In this document: piece after piece, positions 1 through 9,388 of the stretch
Layout of the letters: each line of letters starts with the position of its first letter
Position numbering within the stretch: the first letter of the stretch is position 1
Origin: Halomonas halodenitrificans DSM 735
Lineage (GTDB): Bacteria > Pseudomonadota > Gammaproteobacteria > Pseudomonadales > Halomonadaceae
DNA: 64,000 nt
Direction: 5' to 3'
Assembly (NCBI RefSeq): GCF_000620045.1
Contig: NZ_JHVH01000021.1
Span: 1-64,000 of the forward strand
The notes under the pieces: generated by a model
Databases searched by the model: none
What the model was told of the DNA's origin: nothing
Seen by the model: the letters and a program-made list of their open reading frames with translations, nothing else
Position numbers and translations under genes: made by a program

Positions 1-300
1 CGATCGCGGAAGTCAGTATTGTTCGATGCTGTACCAATCGTTACTGACCCGCTACGAACTCCAGTGCAGCATGAGCGCCAAGGGCAATTGCTTTGATAAT
101 GCGTGCGCCGAGAGCTTTTTCCACAGCCTCAAGGTCGAGGCCATCCATGGCGAGCGATTCGAGACGCGGGATGCCATGCGACGACAGGTATTCGAATATA
201 TTGAGTTGGACTACAACCGGCAGCGCCGGCACAGTGCAATTGGGATGATCAGCCCAGAGGCTTTCGAAGCTCAAATGATCGCTTAGATCGGTGTCCACCA
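1..300 (+). mobile_element. Right-hand end of an IS3-family insertion sequence, cut by the window edge
   Basis: The window opens inside an IS3-type transposase gene, whose stop codon is at 284-286. About 14 bases beyond it, near 300, the sequence changes to the truncated TIGR03757 gene on the other strand. The terminal inverted repeat probably lies at about 286-300, ending in CA as IS3 elements usually do. It cannot be proven because the left end is outside the window. The insertion splits a conjugation gene. Confidence 0.75.
2..286 (+). CDS. IS3-family transposase OrfB, C-terminal part (5' end outside window)
   Basis: This frame is open from base 2 and gives the C-terminal 94 residues of an rve/DDE integrase-core transposase. 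The second catalytic aspartate sits in an SDRGSQY motif at the start. The catalytic glutamate sits in the [12 protein letters not shown] motif at about residue 38. The [15 protein letters not shown] motif near the end is typical of IS3-group transposases. The protein cuts and joins the IS ends. IS3 enzymes are normally made as an OrfAB fusion by programmed frameshifting, which cannot be assessed here because the upstream part is missing. Confidence 0.9.
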
Positions 301-440
301 ATGCTGGGTAAGATCACATTGATGGCCGGCTGCCCTGCCGTGGTAAAAACTTCGATAACTGGCTCAGCGAGTGCAGAACCTGCCAGGCAGGCAGATAGCC
401 CGAAAGCCACTAGCCAGCGGCGTGGGTGGTGTCTCTCCAT
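301..440 (-). pseudogene. Truncated TIGR03757-family ICE transfer protein (N-terminal stub)
   Basis: An ATG at 440, preceded by GGAG with an 8-base spacer, starts a protein with a charged N-terminus, a hydrophobic signal peptide ending in SALA, then PVIEVFTTAGQPAIN. This matches the start of the small periplasmic TIGR03757 protein that follows the VirB4-like ATPase gene in this ICE family. After about 45 residues the reading frame enters the IS3 end and stops at 249, so the rest of the gene is cut off. The missing part, with the TIGR03756 and TIGR03755 genes, would be expected beyond the IS. Family assignment rests on a short segment and on position. Confidence 0.6.
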
Positions 441-613
441 GCTTGCCACTCCAGAAGATCAAGGAACTGACAGAGCATTACCGGACACATCGAAACAGGC
501 AGCAGGAAATGTTAATTCGCTTGCGAGATGTTTTCTGCAGCTGCCATCAAGGGCAAGCCCATCAATTCCCCCCACCACGACCCAATTCAATGAGCTTTAT
601 ATTTCGAGATACA

Positions 614-642
614 TTGAGACTTGCTGTAACTGCCCTCATAAT
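614..642 (+). promoter_or_regulatory. Likely sigma-70 promoter of the MvaT-like gene
   Basis: TTGAGA at 614-619 and CATAAT at 637-642 are separated by exactly 17 bases, each matching the sigma-70 consensus at 5 of 6 positions. A start site near 649 would leave a leader of about 27 bases before the ATG at 676. The surrounding DNA is AT-rich. Confidence 0.6.
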
Positions 643-675
643 AGGGACAAACATTCACTCACCGTGAGGAAACGC

Positions 676-1047
676 ATGTCCATTCTTAATACCTACATGC
701 AGAAGGAACAGCAGCTGAAGCAGCTCCAGGAAGAGCTGGATAGGCTGAAGAATGACGACCGCCTGAAGACCGAGCTGGATTTCAAGAACCACCTCGAAGA
801 ACTGATGCACGAATACAACAAGTCAGCCGCCGACGTCATCAAGCTACTAGATCCGAAACCCGCGTCTACCAAGGCTACCAGCACCACGCCCACTGGCCGT
901 GCCAGGCGTAAGCTGAAGATCTACGAGAACCCGCACACTGGCGAAGTCGTCAAGACCCGTGGCGGCAACCAGAAGACGTTGAAGGCGTGGAAGGATGAGC
1001 ACGGAGCCGAGACCGTGGAGGGCTGGTTGGTTAAGACGGAAGATTAG
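676..1047 (+). CDS. MvaT/MvaU-family H-NS-like xenogeneic silencer
   Basis: This 123-residue protein has the layout of Pseudomonas MvaT. An N-terminal coiled-coil oligomerisation region (about residues 1-60) holds the motifs ELDFKNHLEELM and SAADVIKLLDP. A basic linker with GRARRKLK follows. The C-terminal AT-hook-like DNA-binding region carries NPHTGEVVKTRGGNQKTLKAW. Known relatives bind AT-rich foreign DNA and silence it. The ATG at 676 is chosen for its GAGGA ribosome site; the frame is open further upstream to 301 but without family similarity. The gene runs against all neighbouring ICE genes and has its own promoter and terminator, so it looks like an independent cargo unit. It may help mask the AT-rich cargo or hijack host silencing. 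Confidence 0.92.
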   Translation: MSILNTYMQKEQQLKQLQEELDRLKNDDRLKTELDFKNHLEELMHEYNKSAADVIKLLDPKPASTKATSTTPTGRARRKLKIYENPHTGEVVKTRGGNQKTLKAWKDEHGAETVEGWLVKTED

Positions 1048-1055
1048 TCAGCTTC

Positions 1056-1092
1056 AGCCCTGCCTGCTGCCACCAGCAGGCAGGGCTGCTTT
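1056..1092 (+). terminator. Rho-independent terminator after the MvaT-like gene
   Basis: A perfect 13-bp stem (AGCCCTGCCTGCT at 1056-1068 pairing with 1075-1087) with a 6-base loop begins 8 bases after the mvaT-like stop codon. It is followed by a short T-containing tract (GCTTT). The weak U-tract lowers confidence slightly, but the stem is strong and well placed. Confidence 0.75.
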
Positions 1093-1274
1093 CGGCCAGA
1101 AGCGGACATTCAACGATTGTTACAACTGCAATTCAATAAAGTTACAAGGAAATAAAAAAGTGGGTACATTCTTTTCCCCAACTAAGAATTAGACACATGG
1201 AGCAAGAAGCTAATATACCTAAGGACGGCCAGAAGCAGTCGCTTCTCATCTCAGTGAAGTACCTAGTACCACAG

Positions 1275-2432
1275 TCAAGCTAGGGGATTCTCCCAAACTG
1301 GTAAGCGTAATCGCATTGCTTTCTTGTCCGGAACAATGAAACCCAAGCTGTACCTAGCTCGCGTGATAGCAACATACAACTTATTCTGCGCCATCTCGGC
1401 ATTTGCAGGAAAAGGAGTTGCGCCATCCAAGACGAAATGCATCTGACTGTCCACCGGCAAAATCAGCACGCGATCAAACCCCAATCCTTTGCTACCACCA
1501 AAGTTATAGCAGCGAGCCCAAGCAGGAAGAATCTTTTTTCCAGATGCCATATTCCAGCGCAGGACTACAGGATGATATGTCTTGATGTAATCGGTAACGT
1601 CAGATTGCTTGACGATGAAAACACCAATGTGATGGCTAAGCTCATTCGGCACATCGTCAACAGCTGATATAGTCGCCTCGTAAGCGCCTTTATGCACCTC
1701 GTCAGAAATAGCACAGATCGTTTGGATACTCCGAAAATTGCGCATGAGCGCCTCTTCTTTGAAGCCCATAGACTTAAACGCTGCAATCTTTTCTGCGGCC
1801 GTTTTAGGCGCCTTTTGGCCAAACGTTGTCTCGTAAACAGTCTGTCGGAAGTCTCCTACGCAAGTGATGGGTGATTTCATTTCTTTGCTCAGAGCCTTGA
1901 GTACTTCATAATCCCATCCAACCAGATCTTGCACTTCATCAAAATATATTCGGCTGTATATATCGCCGAGCCGAACTGCTGCAGCATTCTTCGTGGCCTT
2001 TGCGATCCGGGCCACCAGCTTAGCCAGAAAGCCTGTGTGAGCCTTAGTTTTGCACTGAGTAAGGAAGTGATTTGAGTTATAGCTCTTATCTTTTAGCTGT
2101 TCCTTGCGTCCGGGCAACATGTGTGTCGATCCCGGCTTCAGGTGAGGGTTTCGTTCGTTGAAAAATATTCCGTCGATCCGTTGCGAAAATAGAGCTTGCT
2201 GATACGGCCTCACCATATCTTCTAGGTAAAAAGAGAACAGGCCTTTCACTACGAACTGATCACTTTGTTTACCAAAAGAAGCTAGAAATCGACGCCGCAG
2301 TTCCTGCTGATTACTAATTGTGTAGGTTACTACTAAAACCTTGCCTCCGCGTTCAATCTCCGCTATCGACTCGGTGATGATCTTATGGGTTTTGCCTGAT
2401 CCTGCTCCGGCTATACATAATATGTTAGTCAA
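1275..2432 (-). CDS. gajB: Gabija-like GajB: UvrD/PcrA-type superfamily 1 helicase
   Basis: This 385-residue SF1 helicase-like protein has Walker A GAGSGKT (about residues 9-15), motif Ia VLVVTYT, Walker B YFDEVQD (about 162), motif III GDFRQT (about 192), motif IV LMRNFRS, and motif VI AITRAR near residue 360. The start is TTG at 2432, with GAGG 8 bases upstream, overlapping the stop of the OLD-family gene by 8 bp, so the two are translationally coupled. In Gabija systems GajB works with the GajA nuclease to block phage by nucleotide-sensitive DNA cleavage. Characterised GajB is nearer 490 residues, so this is a compact version, lacking mostly 1B/2B-type insertions (inference). The region is visibly AT-richer than the ICE backbone. 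Confidence 0.8.
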   Translation of the reverse strand: MTNILCIAGAGSGKTHKIITESIAEIERGGKVLVVTYTISNQQELRRRFLASFGKQSDQFVVKGLFSFYLEDMVRPYQQALFSQRIDGIFFNERNPHLKPGSTHMLPGRKEQLKDKSYNSNHFLTQCKTKAHTGFLAKLVARIAKATKNAAAVRLGDIYSRIYFDEVQDLVGWDYEVLKALSKEMKSPITCVGDFRQTVYETTFGQKAPKTAAEKIAAFKSMGFKEEALMRNFRSIQTICAISDEVHKGAYEATISAVDDVPNELSHHIGVFIVKQSDVTDYIKTYHPVVLRWNMASGKKILPAWARCYNFGGSKGLGFDRVLILPVDSQMHFVLDGATPFPANAEMAQNKLYVAITRARYSLGFIVPDKKAMRLRLPVWENPLA

Positions 2433-4083
2433 AGCTCAGCACCTCACAGAGGAAGTCGGGATACTTGAATCGCTCTGTGGTATCAAACAACCTAATGGCC
2501 GAGTCGACCTTTCTCTTCCCCTTGCCATCGCCATCCTTGCTCTTGAACCACTCAACGATGAAAGTACGCTTGTCATCGAATGTTGGCTCCTTTGCTAGAA
2601 GGTTATATGTCTTGGCCGAGAGTACGATTTTCGCAAACGCCATCAGCTCTTTTTCCGATGTGGCATTTGCTGAGATCATTGCAGGCTCCAGTGAAAAATC
2701 ATTGTTATCCGCAGATGAGATCAGCTTGACATTCGGATGCGCCGCGTACTCCTTTTGCGCTTCAACGACGTTGTTTAAATAATCACCATCGTTGTCCCGC
2801 AAGACATTTATTGCAGTACCTATTTCTTTTCCTATCTCGATGAACGTTTTGAATCCCACACCACGTACTACGATGATATCGATCCCATCCTGCTCAGGCA
2901 GACGCCCCTTATTATCTTTGTATATTTTCTTGATCACCAACTCATCAGATGGCCCTTCTACTAACACCACCTTTTTAGAAAGAGCGACACGCAGAGTATC
3001 GTAGCCTGGTAACCGCTTCAGCATCTTCACCACTTCTTTGTCTAAGAGGTTCAGCCGCTTATATGAGTCATGGAGTAAGCAGATCTTGTCAATGCTCAAC
3101 TTGTTTAAAACATATGAACTGTGGGTAGTGATGAACAACTGCTTCTCGTCTCGCTGATCTTCGATATCTTTTACAAGCCTGCTCAGCTCGACGTGGGATA
3201 GGTGATTTTCTGGCTCTTCCATCATCACAAGATCAATGTCTTTCGACTTATTATGGAGGGCCAGTTTGATCTGGACCTTGCTCTGCTCACCCTTTCCTAT
3301 CATGTGAAAAGGCACGGTTTCCACTTCCAGCTGTAAACCATTCTGGAGTGCACCTGCCGGCATCGTGTTAGCAGCAATGGTTAGCTTTTTATCGGTAATC
3401 CTATTATCTATATCTAATTCCCTGTTGACTTCTTTCACCTCCTCAGTGTCGTTAAATGATTGCAGGGTTTCACGATAATTGAGGCTCAAGCGGTACGCTT
3501 CATCCTTCTTGAGTGCGGTATTCAGGACATTCGAGATATACTGATTCTTGCCGAAGGTGGGATGAATGCGAGCCGGGTCGATGTATAATGCTCGGAACTT
3601 CTTGGTCATCGGCTTGATGACGTTCCATGCAAAGTCCATCCACTCTACTTTGTAAAATTCCACTGGTATGCTGGTTATTGGCGCTCCGGTGGCTAGATAG
3701 TCCTGATAGGCACCTAAGAAATCTGGATCGAAGCTCGCTTTGACTTGAACCCCCATTGCATCTTTCAACAGGCTGTTGTTCGCACCTCGGTAATCGGGCA
3801 CGTTCTTCATATATGCCTCAATCACAAGGACTGGCAAGTCTTCAGGTGTTTTCGAAGATGCTAGGAATGCAGCGACTGCGTCACTGTTAAATAAATCGGG
3901 AGAAAACTCATTGTTGAACGGACGGCCACGATACTGGAAGTTGAGCACGATTTCCAATGCTTCTAGAACCGTGCTTTTTCCAGCGTTATTATCACCAACA
4001 AAGATATTTACATCCGGGTTGAACTCAAACGCTTGATCTTTGAACTTTTTGAAATTAAGCAAACGTAGCGATTCTACAAGCAC
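2425..4083 (-). CDS. gajA: Gabija-like GajA: OLD-family ATPase with TOPRIM nuclease
   Basis: This 552-residue protein starts with an ABC/RecF-type ATPase half: Walker A GDNNAGKST at about residues 31-39, a signature-like GKGEQSK (about 265), Walker B IDLVMMEEPENH (about 285), and the switch histidine in ITTHSS. The C-terminal half is a TOPRIM nuclease with VLVEGPSDE (about 375) and a DNDGD metal-binding motif (about 431). Class 2 OLD proteins with this layout sit next to UvrD helicases and form the Gabija anti-phage complex. The start is GTG at 4083, preceded by GGAG with a 7-base spacer. Its stop overlaps the helicase start. Length is close to known GajA (about 580). Confidence 0.85.
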   Translation of the reverse strand: MLVESLRLLNFKKFKDQAFEFNPDVNIFVGDNNAGKSTVLEALEIVLNFQYRGRPFNNEFSPDLFNSDAVAAFLASSKTPEDLPVLVIEAYMKNVPDYRGANNSLLKDAMGVQVKASFDPDFLGAYQDYLATGAPITSIPVEFYKVEWMDFAWNVIKPMTKKFRALYIDPARIHPTFGKNQYISNVLNTALKKDEAYRLSLNYRETLQSFNDTEEVKEVNRELDIDNRITDKKLTIAANTMPAGALQNGLQLEVETVPFHMIGKGEQSKVQIKLALHNKSKDIDLVMMEEPENHLSHVELSRLVKDIEDQRDEKQLFITTHSSYVLNKLSIDKICLLHDSYKRLNLLDKEVVKMLKRLPGYDTLRVALSKKVVLVEGPSDELVIKKIYKDNKGRLPEQDGIDIIVVRGVGFKTFIEIGKEIGTAINVLRDNDGDYLNNVVEAQKEYAAHPNVKLISSADNNDFSLEPAMISANATSEKELMAFAKIVLSAKTYNLLAKEPTFDDKRTFIVEWFKSKDGDGKGKRKVDSAIRLFDTTERFKYPDFLCEVLSFD

Positions 4084-4215
4084 TTTTCAACTCCCTATGA
4101 TTTGAAACCGTCCTGTTGCGGAATGACAGCTTTGGGTCGCTAGCTGCCTTTTAAACTCCTAGAAAACCCTAGCCCAAGGCATGGATAATTGTCCAGCGAT
4201 CAAAATCAAAAATGC
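4084..4215 (-). promoter_or_regulatory. Intergenic leader of the Gabija-like pair
   Basis: These 132 AT-rich bases separate the end of the AbiEii gene from the GTG start of the GajA-like gene, both on the minus strand. They should hold the promoter of the Gabija-like pair. No unambiguous -35/-10 pair or terminator could be picked by eye. Confidence 0.35.
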
Positions 4216-5136
4216 TTACTCCTTGAGATAGCTCAGTGTCTGCTCCAGTAAGAACGCAGATTGGCCATGTTTTTCAGGATCCATCTTCCTGATATTGGCA
4301 AGCTTCCACATTACAGCGGGAAGTTGTCCTACGCCCGCGATAGGAAATAGCGACCAGTCAGGCTCTCCCTGTTTAAACGAAAGTAGAAAGTTAACATCAT
4401 CATCGGTGACCAATTGGCCCAGCTGTTTCAACAACCTATGGCGCACATCCTCCAGCTGCGATAGCGGAATGTCGGTTATGGCCATGCCGACAAACTCCTT
4501 GTGGTAGATGGCCTCCAGGGACTTCATCCTTGGATTGAGGACTTCATTCATCGGCCTGGGATGACCGAGCAGGTAGACCAGAAAGCCCTCGAAGACGCTT
4601 CGATCCATGCCGCCTTGATCCAGCAACAGCTTCACATCGAAGAGATCCCGGGGATGCTGACGATCCAGCGCGGCGCAGAGCTTGCCGCCATAGAGGTCCG
4701 GCAGCGACACAGCCTGCACTGAGGCAAAGCCGTACTCGTCTTCTACGGCCTCTACAACATCGAGTCGTTGTGGTGGATACACGGTGCCGCGCAGCACCGG
4801 CGAGACTTCGACCTTCACCTGGCTCCGGCCGCGGCGTACCAGGATTCTCAACTCATCACGGCGGTTATCCTGAAGCTCGGCCTTTACCCCGGACAGTTGG
4901 GTACCGATCGCCTGTGCCAAGCGCTGCAGCGCCTGACGACAACGTTGCAGAGCTTCGTTACGAGGCTCCAGCGGCAAGTAGGCGAGATCGATGTCGACGG
5001 AAAGCCGCGGGAATGGCTGAACGAAGAGGTTGATGGCCGTGCCGCCTTTGAGGGCAAAGCAGGGCTCGTCGTTGAGAAAGGGCAGCAGCGCGACCAGCAG
5101 GCCCACCTGTTCGTGGTAGCGGGACTCAATGCTCAT
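4216..5136 (-). CDS. abiEii: AbiEii nucleotidyltransferase toxin (type IV toxin-antitoxin)
   Basis: This 306-residue protein has the AbiEii/DUF1814 nucleotidyltransferase core: LKGGTAINLF at about residues 25-34, then the paired acidic SVDIDLAY motif at about 42-49. A following segment contains GGKLCAALDRQHPRDLFD, which matches the conserved lysine and Asp/Phe positions of the family. Known members transfer nucleotides to RNA acceptors and arrest growth on phage infection. The ATG at 5136 is preferred over the longer frame to 5265 because GGAGG stands 9 bases upstream. It overlaps the antitoxin gene by 11 bp, the usual AbiE arrangement. Confidence 0.9.
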   Translation of the reverse strand: MSIESRYHEQVGLLVALLPFLNDEPCFALKGGTAINLFVQPFPRLSVDIDLAYLPLEPRNEALQRCRQALQRLAQAIGTQLSGVKAELQDNRRDELRILVRRGRSQVKVEVSPVLRGTVYPPQRLDVVEAVEDEYGFASVQAVSLPDLYGGKLCAALDRQHPRDLFDVKLLLDQGGMDRSVFEGFLVYLLGHPRPMNEVLNPRMKSLEAIYHKEFVGMAITDIPLSQLEDVRHRLLKQLGQLVTDDDVNFLLSFKQGEPDWSLFPIAGVGQLPAVMWKLANIRKMDPEKHGQSAFLLEQTLSYLKE

Positions 5137-5911
5137 CCATGAATTCCTCCGGGACCGTGACCTGATACTCCTTGTCCAGCCGGCCCCCCTGGCAGAGCTG
5201 ACGCTTGCCCTTGCCCAGGTCCAGACCCTCTGGATCCAATCGATGGTACCAGGCGTGGCCGGCATGGCGAGCCAACACCAGGAAAGCGCGCTTGGCTTTC
5301 ACCGAGCGACACCCTGCCAGCAACGCCTGTAGGCGTCGCGGGCGCAGTGTATTGAGCCCGGTGAAAGTGTCCACGAGCTCACTGCTGAACAGCAGCTCGT
5401 TGGGCGTAATAGCGACCCACTCGAGGATAGCGCGCTCCGGCGTCGAGACCCGAAGGGAAAACCCCACTCTAGGCGGGTTGTAGTCAGTGAAGCTGCCGGG
5501 GAGGTGAGCCGGTAGCCCCTTATCCCGGTGCAGGTCGATAGCCCCGGCCCAGTCGGCTTGTTCCAGCCACAGCGGCAGCTGTGAGCGGCGCTCCGCCGCG
5601 TACAGGTGAGTGGCGGCATGCCCCATGGCTATGTAGTGGGCAAAGCCCTGAAGCGCCAGGGCGGTCTGACCGCCCGGCCAGAACGGAGGGGTAGCGGGGT
5701 CGCTCAGCGCCTGCAGTGCGAACACTCCACTTTCCCAGGTCAGCGAGTCGCCTGCTCGGCAGTAGGCGCCACGCCCGAGGCGACGCAACCAGCCGGCATC
5801 GGTGAGCTTGGCGGCATGGTTAGCGTTGATACCATGGGCATCTAGCCACACCGTGGTGATCACGGCGCCATGGGGGATCCGTTGCCACAGTTGGTTTATT
5901 TTCGTCACCAC
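5126..5911 (-). CDS. abiEi: AbiEi antitoxin/transcriptional autorepressor
   Basis: This 261-residue protein has an N-terminal winged helix-turn-helix (about residues 1-55, with the typical WLRRLGRGAY wing) followed by the AbiEi C-terminal antitoxin domain containing STPERAILEW. Family members neutralise AbiEii without binding it directly and repress their own promoter through inverted repeats. The start is a GTG at 5911 (a second GTG is at 5908). A large palindrome lies immediately upstream and covers the weak ribosome site, consistent with autoregulation. Confidence 0.9.
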   Translation of the reverse strand: MVTKINQLWQRIPHGAVITTVWLDAHGINANHAAKLTDAGWLRRLGRGAYCRAGDSLTWESGVFALQALSDPATPPFWPGGQTALALQGFAHYIAMGHAATHLYAAERRSQLPLWLEQADWAGAIDLHRDKGLPAHLPGSFTDYNPPRVGFSLRVSTPERAILEWVAITPNELLFSSELVDTFTGLNTLRPRRLQALLAGCRSVKAKRAFLVLARHAGHAWYHRLDPEGLDLGKGKRQLCQGGRLDKEYQVTVPEEFMDEH

Positions 5912-5916
5912 AGTTC

Positions 5917-5991
5917 GCCTAATCAGCCAATTCAGGTGTTATTTTTAAACCAATGCGGTTTAACTTCAACACCCAAAATGGAAGGTTAGGC
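5917..5991. promoter_or_regulatory. 75-bp nested inverted repeat, probable AbiEi operator
   Basis: Three pairs of arms share the same centre at position 5954: TTAAACC (5945-5951) with GGTTTAA (5957-5963), GGTGTT (5935-5940) with AACACC (5968-5973), and GCCTAA (5917-5922) with TTAGGC (5986-5991). Between the two outer pairs, several further bases also match. The element fills the gap between the VirB4-like gene and abiEi and begins 6 bases from the abiEi start codon. It is not GC-rich and has no U-tract, so an operator is more likely than a terminator. Characterised AbiEi proteins bind inverted repeats at this position. Confidence 0.7.
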
Positions 5992-6020
5992 CAATTGCAG
6001 CGACTTTTCTAAACCCACGC

Positions 6021-8921
6021 CTACTCCGTAGACCCGATGCCCCGGGCCTTGTCCAGCCGCTGAGCGATCTCCAACGTAGCCTCGAGCTCCGAACAGCCCC
6101 GCTCGCGCATCACCCGCATTCGCTCGGCCTTCTCCTCACCCTCGGTGCCGGCCAGGGCCAGGTAGAGGCTCGGCGGTACCACCCGGAACAGCGCCTCCAG
6201 ACGCCCTGACAGCACCACCCCTTCGGTGTATTTCTTGGAGACCTTGGTGGCGGAGGCCATCAGCTTGCACTGGGTGGCAGTGAGCTCCTTGAAGCGGCTG
6301 ACCTGCTCGATCTCGTCCGGGGGCATGTAGAGGCACAGCCAGAACTCGATCATGTTGAGCAGCTTGCGGGCCGCATCGGGAAAGTCCTCGAGGTTCTGGG
6401 TGGCCATCCAGATCCAGTGGGAGAGCTTGCGGCCCATCTTGCCCACCTTGACCAGGTAGGGGCTCAGCAGCGGGTTGACGGTGAGCAGGTGGCACTCGTC
6501 GATGACCTGGACGATCGGTCGCCCGCTGTACTGGTCGCGCTCGGCCAGGTTGGTGATCATGTTGGTCACGCTGATCACTGCCAGAGCGAGCTGGGCCTCA
6601 TAGCCCTCCCGAGCGAAGTGGGCCAGGTCGATGATGGTCACGTCGCATTCGGGCCAGGCGGCACCGGGCCGGTTGAATACTTCGCCGTCGAAGCCGTCGC
6701 AGAACAACCCCATGGCCTCGCCCATATCATAGGCGCGGCGCTGACGCTCCTCCGGGATACCCGTGTCACGTGAGATCGTATAGAGCGCCTCGCGCACGTC
6801 CTGGGTCATGCAGTCGCGACCTTCGTCTCGGCAGCGCTCCGCCGCCCGGTAGATCGCATCGCGGACCATGCGCCGGTCGGCACGACGAAACTCCCGCTCC
6901 TCCTTGGGATCGCCGCCGGTGATCATCAGCCGGGCGGTGATCTCCATCTCCCCAAGCAGATCGCGCTCCTCGTCAGGCTGCCCCTCTTCCTCCTCCAGGG
7001 GCGCCTCCTCGAAGGGGTTGGCATCCTCGGCGTCTCGGGCCAGGCGCCTCTCTTCCACCTCGTTCTGCAGCAGCCGCGAGGCTGCCGCGAAGGGCGGCAG
7101 CCTCGCCCCGCAGCCCGGCGACAGCTTGACCTGATTGACGCTCATGCCCTTTCGCTCGAAATACTGGCCCAGCAACCCGAAGCTGTTGCCTACCTCGATG
7201 ATAAAGAGCCGCGGACGGTGTATGGCCATGACCTGGCTCAGCACGCCGTTCAGAGTGGCCGACTTGCCCGCCCCGGTGGGACCGAACACCAGCATATGGG
7301 CGTTGGCCGAGCGGTCCTCGAGATTCAGTGGGTCGAAGCTGAAGGTTTCGCCGCCGCGATTGAAGAATGTCATGCCGGGGTGGCCGGTGCCGCGGCCGCG
7401 CCCGAACACCGGCGCCAGGTTGGCCAGGTGGTGGGCGTAATTGAACTGGGTGTACCAGCGATTCTTGCGATCCTGCTCCGGATCGAAGTTCATCGGCAGC
7501 CAGCGCAGGTAGGTGTTCAGGCCGGCGACCTCATCCTCCGGATCCACCGGTGAGAGGTTTACCTGCAGCAGCTGGGTAGCCAGCTCCATGCTGCGCTGCT
7601 GGAGATCCTGCTCATCCCCGCCCATCAGGTAAAACGCCAGTGTGCTCTGGTAGAGCTTGTGGTTTTGCCCCAGATAGAGGCGGGCAGTCTCGCAGTCTTC
7701 ACGCACCTGGCGAGCCAGCACGCTATCGCCCACCGCCTTGTTGTGCAGGCGATTGATGTGGTCCTCCAGAGGCTCCTGGGGCGTGGCGACGATGGTCAGT
7801 ACCGCCTCGGTGCCCTCGGGCAGTTTGTCCATCAGGGCGTTGCTCGCCTGGCCGTCGGAGCGACGCACTTCGCCTGTGAGATGCCCCACCACCGGCACCC
7901 GGCGCATCTCCTCCACCACCACGCAGCACTGCGGTAGTCCGTCGAACCACCAGAGCCCGGTCTCTACATCGCCCTGGGGCGAGTTGAAGAGCATTCCCTC
8001 GGCCAGATCGTAGTTCCAGGCCACCTCATCGGCTTCCTCGGGATAGTCGCACAGGGTATAGAAGCGCGACGGATCCTCCGGTGCCAGCCGCGGTCGCGGA
8101 TTGAAGCGCGGCAGCAACCAGCGGTGAAAGGCGCGCCCGTCATAGCGCTTCAGGCGCAGGCCCGCGCCGTGCAGCGCAGCAGCCAACCGATCATAGACCT
8201 GATTGGCGGCCTGTTCGGGCGAAAGCCCCCGCTGGCGTTCTCCCGTCTGGCGTTTCTTGCCGAGCCAGCGGTAGAGCACCAGGCGCGTGCGGCGGGTCTG
8301 GCCTCGCCACTGGGTCTGGGTCACGCCGTCATCCTGAAACAATCCGCCTGGCTTGGAAATGGCCCTGAGATGAGCGCCCATGCTCATCAGCCAGTCCTGG
8401 GTAAACTCGGTCTCTCGAGCCCGAGGCCGCACATAATCACGCATGCGCTCCAGGTCGGGACGGGCATCGACTTCATCCTTGACGAAGAGCTGTACCACCC
8501 AGGGGTGCTGATCATACTCCGGCAGGCTGTCCTGGAAGGCGGCTTCAATCTGGTCACGAATTGCCTCAAGCGACTCCGGGGCGCGGCCCTCGGTGGCGAT
8601 GGGGAAGACCTCGGCCACCACGCCTACCGACACCCCATCCTCCAGGAGGAAGCAGCCCGACTCCGGCAGGTACTCCACCCAGGGCAGATAGTTGCTGAAC
8701 GACGGCGCCCGGCGGAAATGCGAGCGAAGCTCGGCCACGGAAGGCGCCTTGCCTCGCGGTAGGCTCAGAGGTCTGCCATGCATATCGTTGCTCAGCGCCG
8801 CCACCTCTGTGGGCGACGACGGCTCCGCAGGAGATATCGGCAGTGCCTCATCCAGGGGCTTCCCCTGGCCAGCCTTGGCGCTACCAAACAGCCGATTCAC
8901 CAGATTATCGAACTGGGACAT
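6021..8921 (-). CDS. VirB4/TraC-like conjugative transfer ATPase (TIGR03744)
   Basis: This 966-residue ATPase energises assembly of the MPF-G type IV secretion channel at the inner membrane. Walker A FGPTGAGKSATLNG is at about residue 548 and Walker B VQVIDECHLL at about 805, followed by ATQNLEDF. An acidic insert (about residues 645-680, rich in E and D) lies between them. The ATG at 8921 is chosen over the longer frame because GGGAGG precedes it with an 8-base spacer. It overlaps the stop of the lipoprotein gene (ATGA). This is the last intact transfer gene in the window before the cargo. Confidence 0.93.
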   Translation of the reverse strand: MSQFDNLVNRLFGSAKAGQGKPLDEALPISPAEPSSPTEVAALSNDMHGRPLSLPRGKAPSVAELRSHFRRAPSFSNYLPWVEYLPESGCFLLEDGVSVGVVAEVFPIATEGRAPESLEAIRDQIEAAFQDSLPEYDQHPWVVQLFVKDEVDARPDLERMRDYVRPRARETEFTQDWLMSMGAHLRAISKPGGLFQDDGVTQTQWRGQTRRTRLVLYRWLGKKRQTGERQRGLSPEQAANQVYDRLAAALHGAGLRLKRYDGRAFHRWLLPRFNPRPRLAPEDPSRFYTLCDYPEEADEVAWNYDLAEGMLFNSPQGDVETGLWWFDGLPQCCVVVEEMRRVPVVGHLTGEVRRSDGQASNALMDKLPEGTEAVLTIVATPQEPLEDHINRLHNKAVGDSVLARQVREDCETARLYLGQNHKLYQSTLAFYLMGGDEQDLQQRSMELATQLLQVNLSPVDPEDEVAGLNTYLRWLPMNFDPEQDRKNRWYTQFNYAHHLANLAPVFGRGRGTGHPGMTFFNRGGETFSFDPLNLEDRSANAHMLVFGPTGAGKSATLNGVLSQVMAIHRPRLFIIEVGNSFGLLGQYFERKGMSVNQVKLSPGCGARLPPFAAASRLLQNEVEERRLARDAEDANPFEEAPLEEEEGQPDEERDLLGEMEITARLMITGGDPKEEREFRRADRRMVRDAIYRAAERCRDEGRDCMTQDVREALYTISRDTGIPEERQRRAYDMGEAMGLFCDGFDGEVFNRPGAAWPECDVTIIDLAHFAREGYEAQLALAVISVTNMITNLAERDQYSGRPIVQVIDECHLLTVNPLLSPYLVKVGKMGRKLSHWIWMATQNLEDFPDAARKLLNMIEFWLCLYMPPDEIEQVSRFKELTATQCKLMASATKVSKKYTEGVVLSGRLEALFRVVPPSLYLALAGTEGEEKAERMRVMRERGCSELEATLEIAQRLDKARGIGSTE

Positions 8922-9388
8922 CAGAGTGCCCTCCCGTCGACCCACTCTGCGGTGGTTCGAGCGCTCTCCCCGGGCATCGCGTACTGGGTGCGCTGGTAGA
9001 AGGGGAACACCGTCGAGTAGCCGGGCACCGGCACCTGCTCCGTCCCGGCCAGGTGCGGGAAGACGTACATCACCAGATCCGGGTTGGGCAGACGGCGGAA
9101 CTGGCTGTAGATCTCGTTGCCCACATCACGGCTGTAACGCAGCTGCTCAGTGATCATGTCGTCACCCTGCAGCGGACGGCGAAGTGCGCTGCGCGCGTCC
9201 AGCAGGCGACGCTCGTCGGTGCTGTAGCCGGCCTGGCTCTGCCAGATCTCCATCATGGTGGTACCTCCCACTGGCATCAGCTCCTCCTGGGAAGTGGCGC
9301 AGCCAACCACTGCCAGAGTGGTCATCAGGGCCATCAGTGGCCTGGCGGCGCTACGGCAGGCCGAGGTTGTCCGCACCAGAACGGTCAT
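8921..9388 (-). CDS. Conjugative transfer lipoprotein (TIGR03751)
   Basis: This 155-residue protein has a type II signal peptide with a lipobox ending VVGC at about residue 30. It then carries the family-like stretches EIWQSQAGYS and RLPNPDLVMYVFPHLAG. It is likely an outer-membrane lipoprotein of the mating-pair channel, in the position of VirB7/TraV-like proteins. The ATG at 9388 has GGAGG 8 bases upstream. It overlaps the preceding gene by 38 bp and the ATPase gene by 1 bp, so it is part of one tightly packed operon. Confidence 0.88.
   Translation of the reverse strand: MTVLVRTTSACRSAARPLMALMTTLAVVGCATSQEELMPVGGTTMMEIWQSQAGYSTDERRLLDARSALRRPLQGDDMITEQLRYSRDVGNEIYSQFRRLPNPDLVMYVFPHLAGTEQVPVPGYSTVFPFYQRTQYAMPGESARTTAEWVDGRAL

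Follow-up and report, generated by a model that had tools for sequence, protein, structure and literature searches.

Genomic islands of Pseudomonas aeruginosa carry a described cargo hotspot, GI-Hotspot 3, located between TraU and TraC of PAPI-1, where defence systems are reported in 13% of cases; PAPI-1 itself holds only a type II restriction–modification system and PD-lambda-5 there, and about 50 systems are listed in the wider set (PMC12629846). A comparable site was analysed here in a stretch of 64,000 nucleotides from Halomonas halodenitrificans DSM 735 (contig NZ_JHVH01000021.1, positions 1 to 64,000, hereafter the window), in which an integrative and conjugative element (ICE) of the PFL_4706 type carries AbiE and Gabija genes between its VirB4 gene and the transfer gene TIGR03757. 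We consider it highly probable that this is a replaceable cargo site with fixed edges, an exchanged cargo of AbiE and of a Gabija system with a short GajB, and probable silencing by MvaT. As in GI-Hotspot 3 of the PAPI-1 and PAGI-5 islands, the site lies at the TraC (TIGR03744)–TraU (TIGR03756) junction and its defence cargo differs between elements, an equivalence drawn from family names and not from a comparison of the boundary proteins of the published hotspot; TIGR03756/TraU directly follows TIGR03757 on L069, a second locus of the same genome. Unlike GI-Hotspot 3, this ICE has an MvaT edge and a content of AbiE and Gabija, and neither MvaT, AbiE, VirB4 nor TIGR03757 is named in the main text of PMC12629846.

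Related arrangements include that of P. aeruginosa pY89, with the order VirB4, a small protein, a DsbA protein, a cytosine methyltransferase, and an ATP-binding protein (the TraU side lies outside the view), and those of two P. syringae ICEs with hypothetical, transglycosylase, and insertion sequence (IS) genes beside TIGR03757 (PMC8895235). This kind of hotspot is already published, and the window adds another example. With it, the cargo hotspot known from P. aeruginosa is also seen in ICEs of a different family, where a natural swap can be read cleanly, and a silencer borne by the ICE is connected to AT-rich cargo in a directly testable form.

Organization of the VirB4–TIGR03757 junction

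The junction of the window is composed of the abiEi–abiEii pair, the gajA–gajB pair, and an MvaT/MvaU-family gene. On the minus strand, read from right to left, TIGR03751, VirB4/TraC (TIGR03744), abiEi, abiEii, gajA, and gajB follow one another; beyond gajB are situated the MvaT/MvaU-family gene on the plus strand and then the N-terminal part of TIGR03757 on the minus strand. The features (lengths in amino acids, aa) are as follows:

6021..8945, minus strand: VirB4/TraC-like transfer ATPase, one edge of the cargo site (TIGR03744, 1302 bits; Pfam TraC_F_IV)
5945..5963, minus strand: perfect 7-5-7 palindrome in the VirB4–abiEi gap, candidate AbiEi operator (sequence comparison)
5126..5911, minus strand: abiEi, winged-helix antitoxin and presumed autorepressor (PADLOC E 7.5e-80; Pfam AbiEi_3_N and AbiEi_3)
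4216..5136, minus strand: abiEii, nucleotidyltransferase toxin, 306 aa (PADLOC E 5.9e-118; Pfam AbiEii E 5.2e-40)
2425..4083, minus strand: gajA, OLD-like ATPase with TOPRIM nuclease, 552 aa (PADLOC PDLC00098 E 5.8e-223; Pfam OLD-like_TOPRIM)
1275..2432, minus strand: gajB, short UvrD-like protein, 385 aa (PADLOC PDLC00140 E 1.5e-133)
676..1047, plus strand: MvaT/MvaU-family xenogeneic silencer gene, the TIGR03757-side edge (NF041859 E 1.1e-44, above cut-off)
about 309..440, minus strand: TIGR03757 transfer gene, N-terminal 44 residues only (remainder at L069:290-646, plus strand)
1..300, plus strand: end part of an IS3-family copy that interrupts TIGR03757 (transposase C-terminus at 26-286, NF033516 E 1.9e-29, a partial match below cut-off)

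With curated-model matches from E 7.5e-80 to 5.8e-223, the AbiE and Gabija assignments are not due to chance. The preliminary description had already placed an AbiEi/AbiEii pair and an OLD-family/UvrD pair at this junction, and all four genes were confirmed by PADLOC, with Pfam in agreement.

Inferred cassette exchange among the closest elements

The clearest single result was obtained by comparing the window with the related element L041. The two are alike on either side of the cargo: one aligned stretch of 3123 bp (96.99% DNA identity) ends at window position 6101, some 27 codons short of the virB4 stop, and the other, of 732 bp (97.40%), begins at window position 1046, at the mvaT stop codon; between these flanks, no alignment was found at E 1e-3. 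The difference amounts to the exchange of one cassette for another between flanks that are almost identical. Since no recombinase gene was found among the genes called in the window and L041 blocks, homologous recombination in the conserved flanks appears to be the simplest route of exchange.

The comparison was extended to the ten closest elements, i.e., the window and nine relatives with VirB4 about 91-100% identical (in two frames in L068), AbiE being recognised in the relatives by homology to the window pair. Their junction contents are as follows:

Window: AbiE and Gabija
L041: CapP-like peptidase, 458-aa NUDIX-bearing protein, PycTM
L037: CTD10 and DUF2326 (ABC-3C; PDC-M68B E 7e-75)
L035: AbiE, PDC-S31, and PDC-S06
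L039: AbiE and a partial Ppl-like match
L038: AbiE and an SH3 protein, whose defence match is unconvincing
L036: partial Ppl-like match, the far side lost at the contig end
L068: AbiEi, then NAD-binding dehydrogenase, aldehyde dehydrogenase (Aldedh), and TRAP-transporter (DctM) genes
L040: catabolic/transport genes (MR_MLE enzyme, catechol dioxygenase)
L042: catabolic/transport genes (SSF, CN_hydrolase)

Gabija was present in one of the ten, the window, and in none of the nine relatives within the visible stretch (L036, L040, and L042 end early), and the contents differ from element to element, which bears out the variable cargo site with defence genes proposed earlier. The AbiE pair was intact in four of the ten, with AbiEi alone in one more. 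The comparison of related ICEs revealed other defence sets in the close elements as well as catabolic genes; in L068, L040, and L042, catabolic/transport genes replace, or adjoin remnants of, defence genes at the same junction. The site is not defence-only. An ordinary accessory region that accepts any cargo and houses defence genes by chance would agree with these three elements and with the efflux-type open reading frames (ORFs) noted by eye in L129 and L132, but we regard it as improbable, given that at least one defence-type set was found in seven of the ten elements (PADLOC matches, the Ppl-like ones partial and the sole basis in L036, or AbiE by homology; the count covers this junction only) and that the equivalent Pseudomonas hotspot is reported with defence content (PMC12629846).

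In the L041 cassette (L041:3299-5720), the genes for the CapP-like peptidase, for the 458-aa protein, whose NUDIX domain is C-terminal, and for the PycTM effector form a single run. Judged by eye, the N-terminal part of the 458-aa protein looks like a class III nucleotide cyclase; if this likeness holds, the run would be a NUDIX-fused Pycsar-like variant.

The junction across the host family and order

In the host family, TIGR03744 was searched in 275 genomes and gave 40 matches above the cut-off in 36 genomes; the 37 regions of the family set represent 38 matches, the other two being the window itself and one match cut by a contig end. In the order, 390 genomes gave 44 matches above the cut-off, from which 37 regions were taken, the seven matches omitted being two already included and five partial or broken. 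TIGR03757 was located with a profile made from family members, and its starts were extrapolated. The junction length ranged from 237 to 8647 bp in the family (measurable in 31/37 loci) and from -48 to 14348 bp in the order (28/37 loci), and junctions shorter than 400 bp accounted for 12 of the 28 order loci versus 1 of the 31 host-family loci. Tight VirB4–TIGR03757 linkage is common in the order, while loaded junctions are the rule in the host family; the preliminary description, in which TIGR03757 closely follows VirB4, is right for those 12 order junctions and not for the host family.

Other family clades bear up to three recurrent genes at the junction (c1, c2, c3) followed by smaller cargo; c1 is DsbC-like, below the model cut-off, and c2 and c3 have no NCBIfam name. 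The cargo of L061 comprises a GmrSD_N protein (best PADLOC match NsnA), a HEPN protein, and a cytosine methylase, that of L032 a type IIG-like enzyme, and that of L033 an SMC-type ATPase and an HNH protein, and no PADLOC match was obtained for the junction proteins of L058 (571 aa), L048 (457 aa), and L108 (538 aa, order set). A pooled PADLOC scan of 49 family junction proteins, some of them scanned before and three of them c1–c3 examples, gave 59 PADLOC families; the best 25 of the 59 each had one member and consisted of 24 methylase models, presumably all matching the L061 enzyme, and PsyrA. Among others, the toxin domains RES (2) and PemK (1) were recognised by Pfam in junction proteins. 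In the distant ICE L128 (11381-14964), an AbiEii-like gene adjoins VirB4 (E 1.2e-97, the best match being to another PADLOC model) and a CBASS-type cyclase is situated further on, and in L129 (3198-4932), also a distant ICE, an ORF with the same start lies beside VirB4, together with genes that appear efflux-type by eye.

The AbiE pair as cargo or as part of the element

The pair resembles the type IV toxin–antitoxin (TA) system AbiE of Streptococcus agalactiae and ICESsuHN105 in its overlapping genes (5126-5136), the presence of both the AbiEi and AbiEii domains, the GG-x15-DhD nucleotidyltransferase motif, and a candidate counterpart of the upstream inverted repeat. The motif (as defined in PMC3985639) is present as GG-x15-DID, the residue before GG being K and not hydrophobic. 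The 7-5-7 palindrome upstream of abiEi is perfect in three of five elements (window, L068, L035) and imperfect in the other two (L038, L039). Unlike S. agalactiae AbiE, the window's system has a palindrome shorter than the repeats described (PMC3985639). For AbiEii, no solved structure matched at E 0.01.

Phage resistance and the stabilisation of plasmids or other mobile DNA are both possible for AbiE (PMC3985639), and for an ICE of Streptococcus suis, AbiE is reported to promote stability, with AbiEi binding to oriT (PMC11062541). A reading to which we give a little less than an even chance treats AbiE as a module by which the ICE secures addiction and controls excision, and not as phage-defence cargo, leaving Gabija alone as defence. 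Besides these two reports, it draws on the collinearity of AbiE (AbiEi alone in L068) with virB4 at 85-88% DNA identity in L035, L038, L039, and L068, and on the AbiEii-like gene of L128 and the same-start ORF of L129. However, L041 and L037 have no AbiE yet keep MvaT and TIGR03757, and their site looks no less complete; moreover, as AbiE can do both (PMC3985639), the two readings are not exclusive. The earlier idea of two unrelated anti-phage systems stands insofar as both are known defence kinds, but AbiE recurs beside VirB4, and TA systems of its type are reported to stabilise ICEs. To label it plainly as phage-defence cargo would go too far: it is semi-resident at the site, where its part in keeping the element stable may be as large as its part in stopping phages.

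The Gabija pair and its short GajB

In the Gabija systems studied so far, GajA cuts DNA once phage replication drains nucleotides, and GajB is its partner. As in Gabija of Bacillus cereus VD045, the window's gajA and gajB are adjacent (8 bp overlap, both matching curated GajA/GajB models), GajA bears ATPase and TOPRIM motifs, and GajB bears the superfamily 1 (SF1) motifs I, II, V, and VI. The six ATPase (Walker A/B) and TOPRIM motif patterns of GajA were all present in 23 of 25 aligned proteins, the window's included, with one failure in L092 and two in L101. Among 26 aligned short GajB proteins, motifs I, II, and VI were found in all, as was the invariant motif V core KGL-x-F; a stricter motif V pattern was found in 12/26 and the motif IV pattern in 21/26. 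Unlike the VD045 system, the window's GajB has 385 aa, compared with 493-499 in the solved GajB chains, and apparently lacks the 2B subdomain, which is a feature of the solved protein and not part of the family definition. A shortening in the window only was ruled out, as 30 of 31 relatives have a GajB of 382-400 aa; in the remaining one, L089, the gene continues into a long frame.

When the 26-sequence short GajB profile was aligned to 8sm3_B, residues 3-252 matched 11-244 and residues 307-370 matched 420-483. The profile skips approximately 120 residues where the 2B subdomain of BcGajB is placed (306-416; PMC10822852), and the stretch matching BcGajB 245-419 (175 residues) is reduced to 54 residues in the window's GajB; the 2B subdomain is therefore very probably absent from the short GajB subfamily. 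This claim rests on the sequence profile and not on the predicted model, which has a mean predicted local distance difference test (pLDDT) value of 68.2, good in the first half and weak afterwards, the 2B region included. The model matched 8sm3_B with VIA Z 16.1 and a root-mean-square deviation of 3.4 over 202 aligned positions (model residues 1-234), and the solved GajB chains align to it up to residue ~236 (312 in the case of 8u7i_E), which leaves the second half hardly covered. The existence of PADLOC GajB models of 365 and 369 positions means that the short class is already known to PADLOC. That the short GajB, with its 385 aa against 493-499 and its missing 2B region, is degenerate and the pair inactive seems to us very unlikely in view of the uniform length of 30 of the 31 relatives, the SF1 motifs conserved in 26/26, and the signs of constrained evolution: the ratio of nonsynonymous to synonymous rates (dN/dS) was 0.05-0.20 in 17 of 20 pairs (three not computable), and the genes look constrained.

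B. cereus GajB, which contains 2B, shows no helicase activity, either alone or with GajA (PMC10681800). A form without 2B would be in keeping with a GajB that has no unwinding function, and no description of a GajB without 2B was found in the literature on the GajB 2B domain or subdomain, as far as it was available. The role of GajB is unsettled, and the short subfamily amounts to a natural experiment on it.

The gajB gene adjoins gajA in 31 of 32 named GajA relatives, the exception being L100, where gajA is interrupted, and VirB4, AbiE, MvaT, or TIGR03757 of this ICE were not found near any of the 32 in the available flanks (tblastn, E 1e-6). The best plasmid match of gajAB, from P. aeruginosa, has 80.9% DNA identity and covers window positions 1265-4100 only, i.e., the pair itself, and none of the 173 plasmid records that matched in the DNA search covered 80% of the query. 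Judging by these neighbourhoods, Gabija is best taken as a stand-alone two-gene module dropped into the site. In the large P. aeruginosa plasmid NZ_OR283034.1 (L145:6018-10286), the nearest plasmid Gabija adjoins a Shedu gene, and the plasmid also carries efflux resistance genes.

Base composition and the MvaT edge

The gajAB genes have 45.9% GC and 5.2% TpA steps, compared with 64.8% and 1.7% in the backbone at 9000-64000. When the sequence was divided into 3195 overlapping 100-bp segments, all but two of the 60 richest in AT (58) had their start within 1-6020. The AbiE pair, with 60.3% GC (AbiEi alone 64.1%), is near the 64.8% of the backbone. The block had been described as AT-richer than the backbone, which is correct for gajAB and not for AbiE.

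The MvaT-family protein matched NF041859 with 151.4 bits (cut-off 75) and carries a C-terminal MvaT_DBD (E 1.9e-20). The genome has four MvaT-family places; identity between the ICE copy and the remaining three, of which two are partial, is 68-77%. The gene is located at the TIGR03757 side in all eight of the closest elements in which this side can be seen, L036 and L040 ending short of it: it is intact in seven (window, L041, L037, L039, L035, L038, and, through L139, L068) and a stub in L042. MvaT as cargo was consequently rejected; the preliminary description rightly recognised an MvaT-like gene in the junction (NF041859); in this ICE clade, the gene forms a fixed edge and is not part of the cargo. 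In L042 (7986-8108), only the first 41 MvaT residues are present, and the cargo begins within mvaT. MvaT was not found in the remaining 28 family loci taken, except as fragments in two frames in L047 (3350-3702), a more distant ICE with a short junction (633 bp), where they are possibly a decayed copy.

To compare cargo with VirB4 in GC content, junctions without a measured TIGR03757, or with less than 1000 bp after removal of c1, c2, c3, and MvaT, were dropped; L068 and L042 are outside this contrast, with cargo GC of 51.6 and 41.6. The GC drop amounted to 14.4-25.0 points with MvaT (median 19.5, n=6) versus a median of 6.2 without it (n=26), and three non-MvaT junctions fall in the same range (L061 18.5, L048 16.5, L050 15.6). 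The six MvaT junctions form one clade, so the test is not independent evidence. The association of MvaT with AT-richer cargo suggests a silencer-guarded dock. In its full form, this would combine MvaT at the rim and AT-rich defence cassettes carried silently and released on induction or phage attack with a Gabija subfamily working without GajB 2B, a combination that we find rather doubtful; if true, a Gabija without 2B would make GajB an ATP-driven partner of GajA and not an unwinding helicase. Control of transfer by the ICE MvaT is an alternative to cargo silencing, since host MvaT directly silences a PAPI-1 transfer promoter (PMC8565334). Like the MvaT-family silencers of genomic islands (PMC7074111), the gene is found on a mobile element with AT-rich DNA; unlike them, it is here the constant neighbour of an exchangeable cargo site. 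No description of such a fixed MvaT edge was found in the available portions of the literature on MvaT/ICE xenogeneic silencing or on TIGR03757/TIGR03744.

Proposed working of the replaceable cargo site

In the reading that we prefer, the 3' end of virB4 and the mvaT–TIGR03757 pair would be the fixed edges, the cargo between them being exchanged most simply by homologous recombination. Beside virB4, AbiE would act as a type IV TA system, presumably autorepressed via the palindrome, that probably keeps the element stable and is also able to stop cells once infected. Gabija would have been acquired as a two-gene module in which, by analogy, GajA cuts DNA on phage-driven nucleotide drain with GajB as partner, and the ICE MvaT probably silences the AT-rich cargo, cutting its cost on arrival.

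Several points weigh against this reading. AbiE could serve element maintenance only; three of the ten closest elements hold mainly catabolic cargo; and the AlphaFold model of GajA is poor (pLDDT 62.6, predicted template modelling score 0.45). The swaps, and with them the recombination between the edges, are deduced from pairs of states. Finally, few PADLOC matches were obtained in the pooled scan of the 49 family junction proteins, so the defence richness belongs to this ICE clade more than to every such junction.

Reading direction of the block and the interrupted TIGR03757 gene

The MvaT gene lies on the opposite strand, diverging from TIGR03757 and converging with gajB. The cargo had been placed inside one transfer operon, which the strand of MvaT and its divergence from TIGR03757 contradict: the block splits the transfer genes. 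Given this orientation of MvaT, a separate promoter for TIGR03757 is presumed within 443-675, where a consensus scan gave a sole promoter-like site on the plus strand (614-642) and none on the minus strand for TIGR03757. Promoter and terminator scans were little different from shuffles (6 vs 4.9, sd 2.1, and 8 vs 6.1, sd 2.3, respectively). Regarding gene starts, homology supports 5136 for AbiEii, overlapping AbiEi, and not 5265, and a 248-aa ORF from 301 was ruled out as the MvaT gene, whose homology begins at 676. The ICE backbone further along the window includes TIGR03746, TIGR03750, TraD, TIGR03759, topoisomerase III, ParB, and an SPI-7-type DnaB.

The window begins at base 1 of its contig (C18), inside the IS3-family copy, and contig C20 of the same genome (L069) carries the rest of TIGR03757, followed by TIGR03756 (Pfam TraU, E 6.1e-58) and TIGR03755. 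Since TIGR03757 is split across both contigs, we infer that C18 and C20 adjoin; a 9-bp word is common to both flanks of the IS3 copy, as a single insertion would give. The break of TIGR03757 by this copy (window 1-442, L069 1-646) also breaks the assembly. Transfer of the window's ICE copy may be impaired by the insertion; copies of TIGR03757 in relatives are intact.

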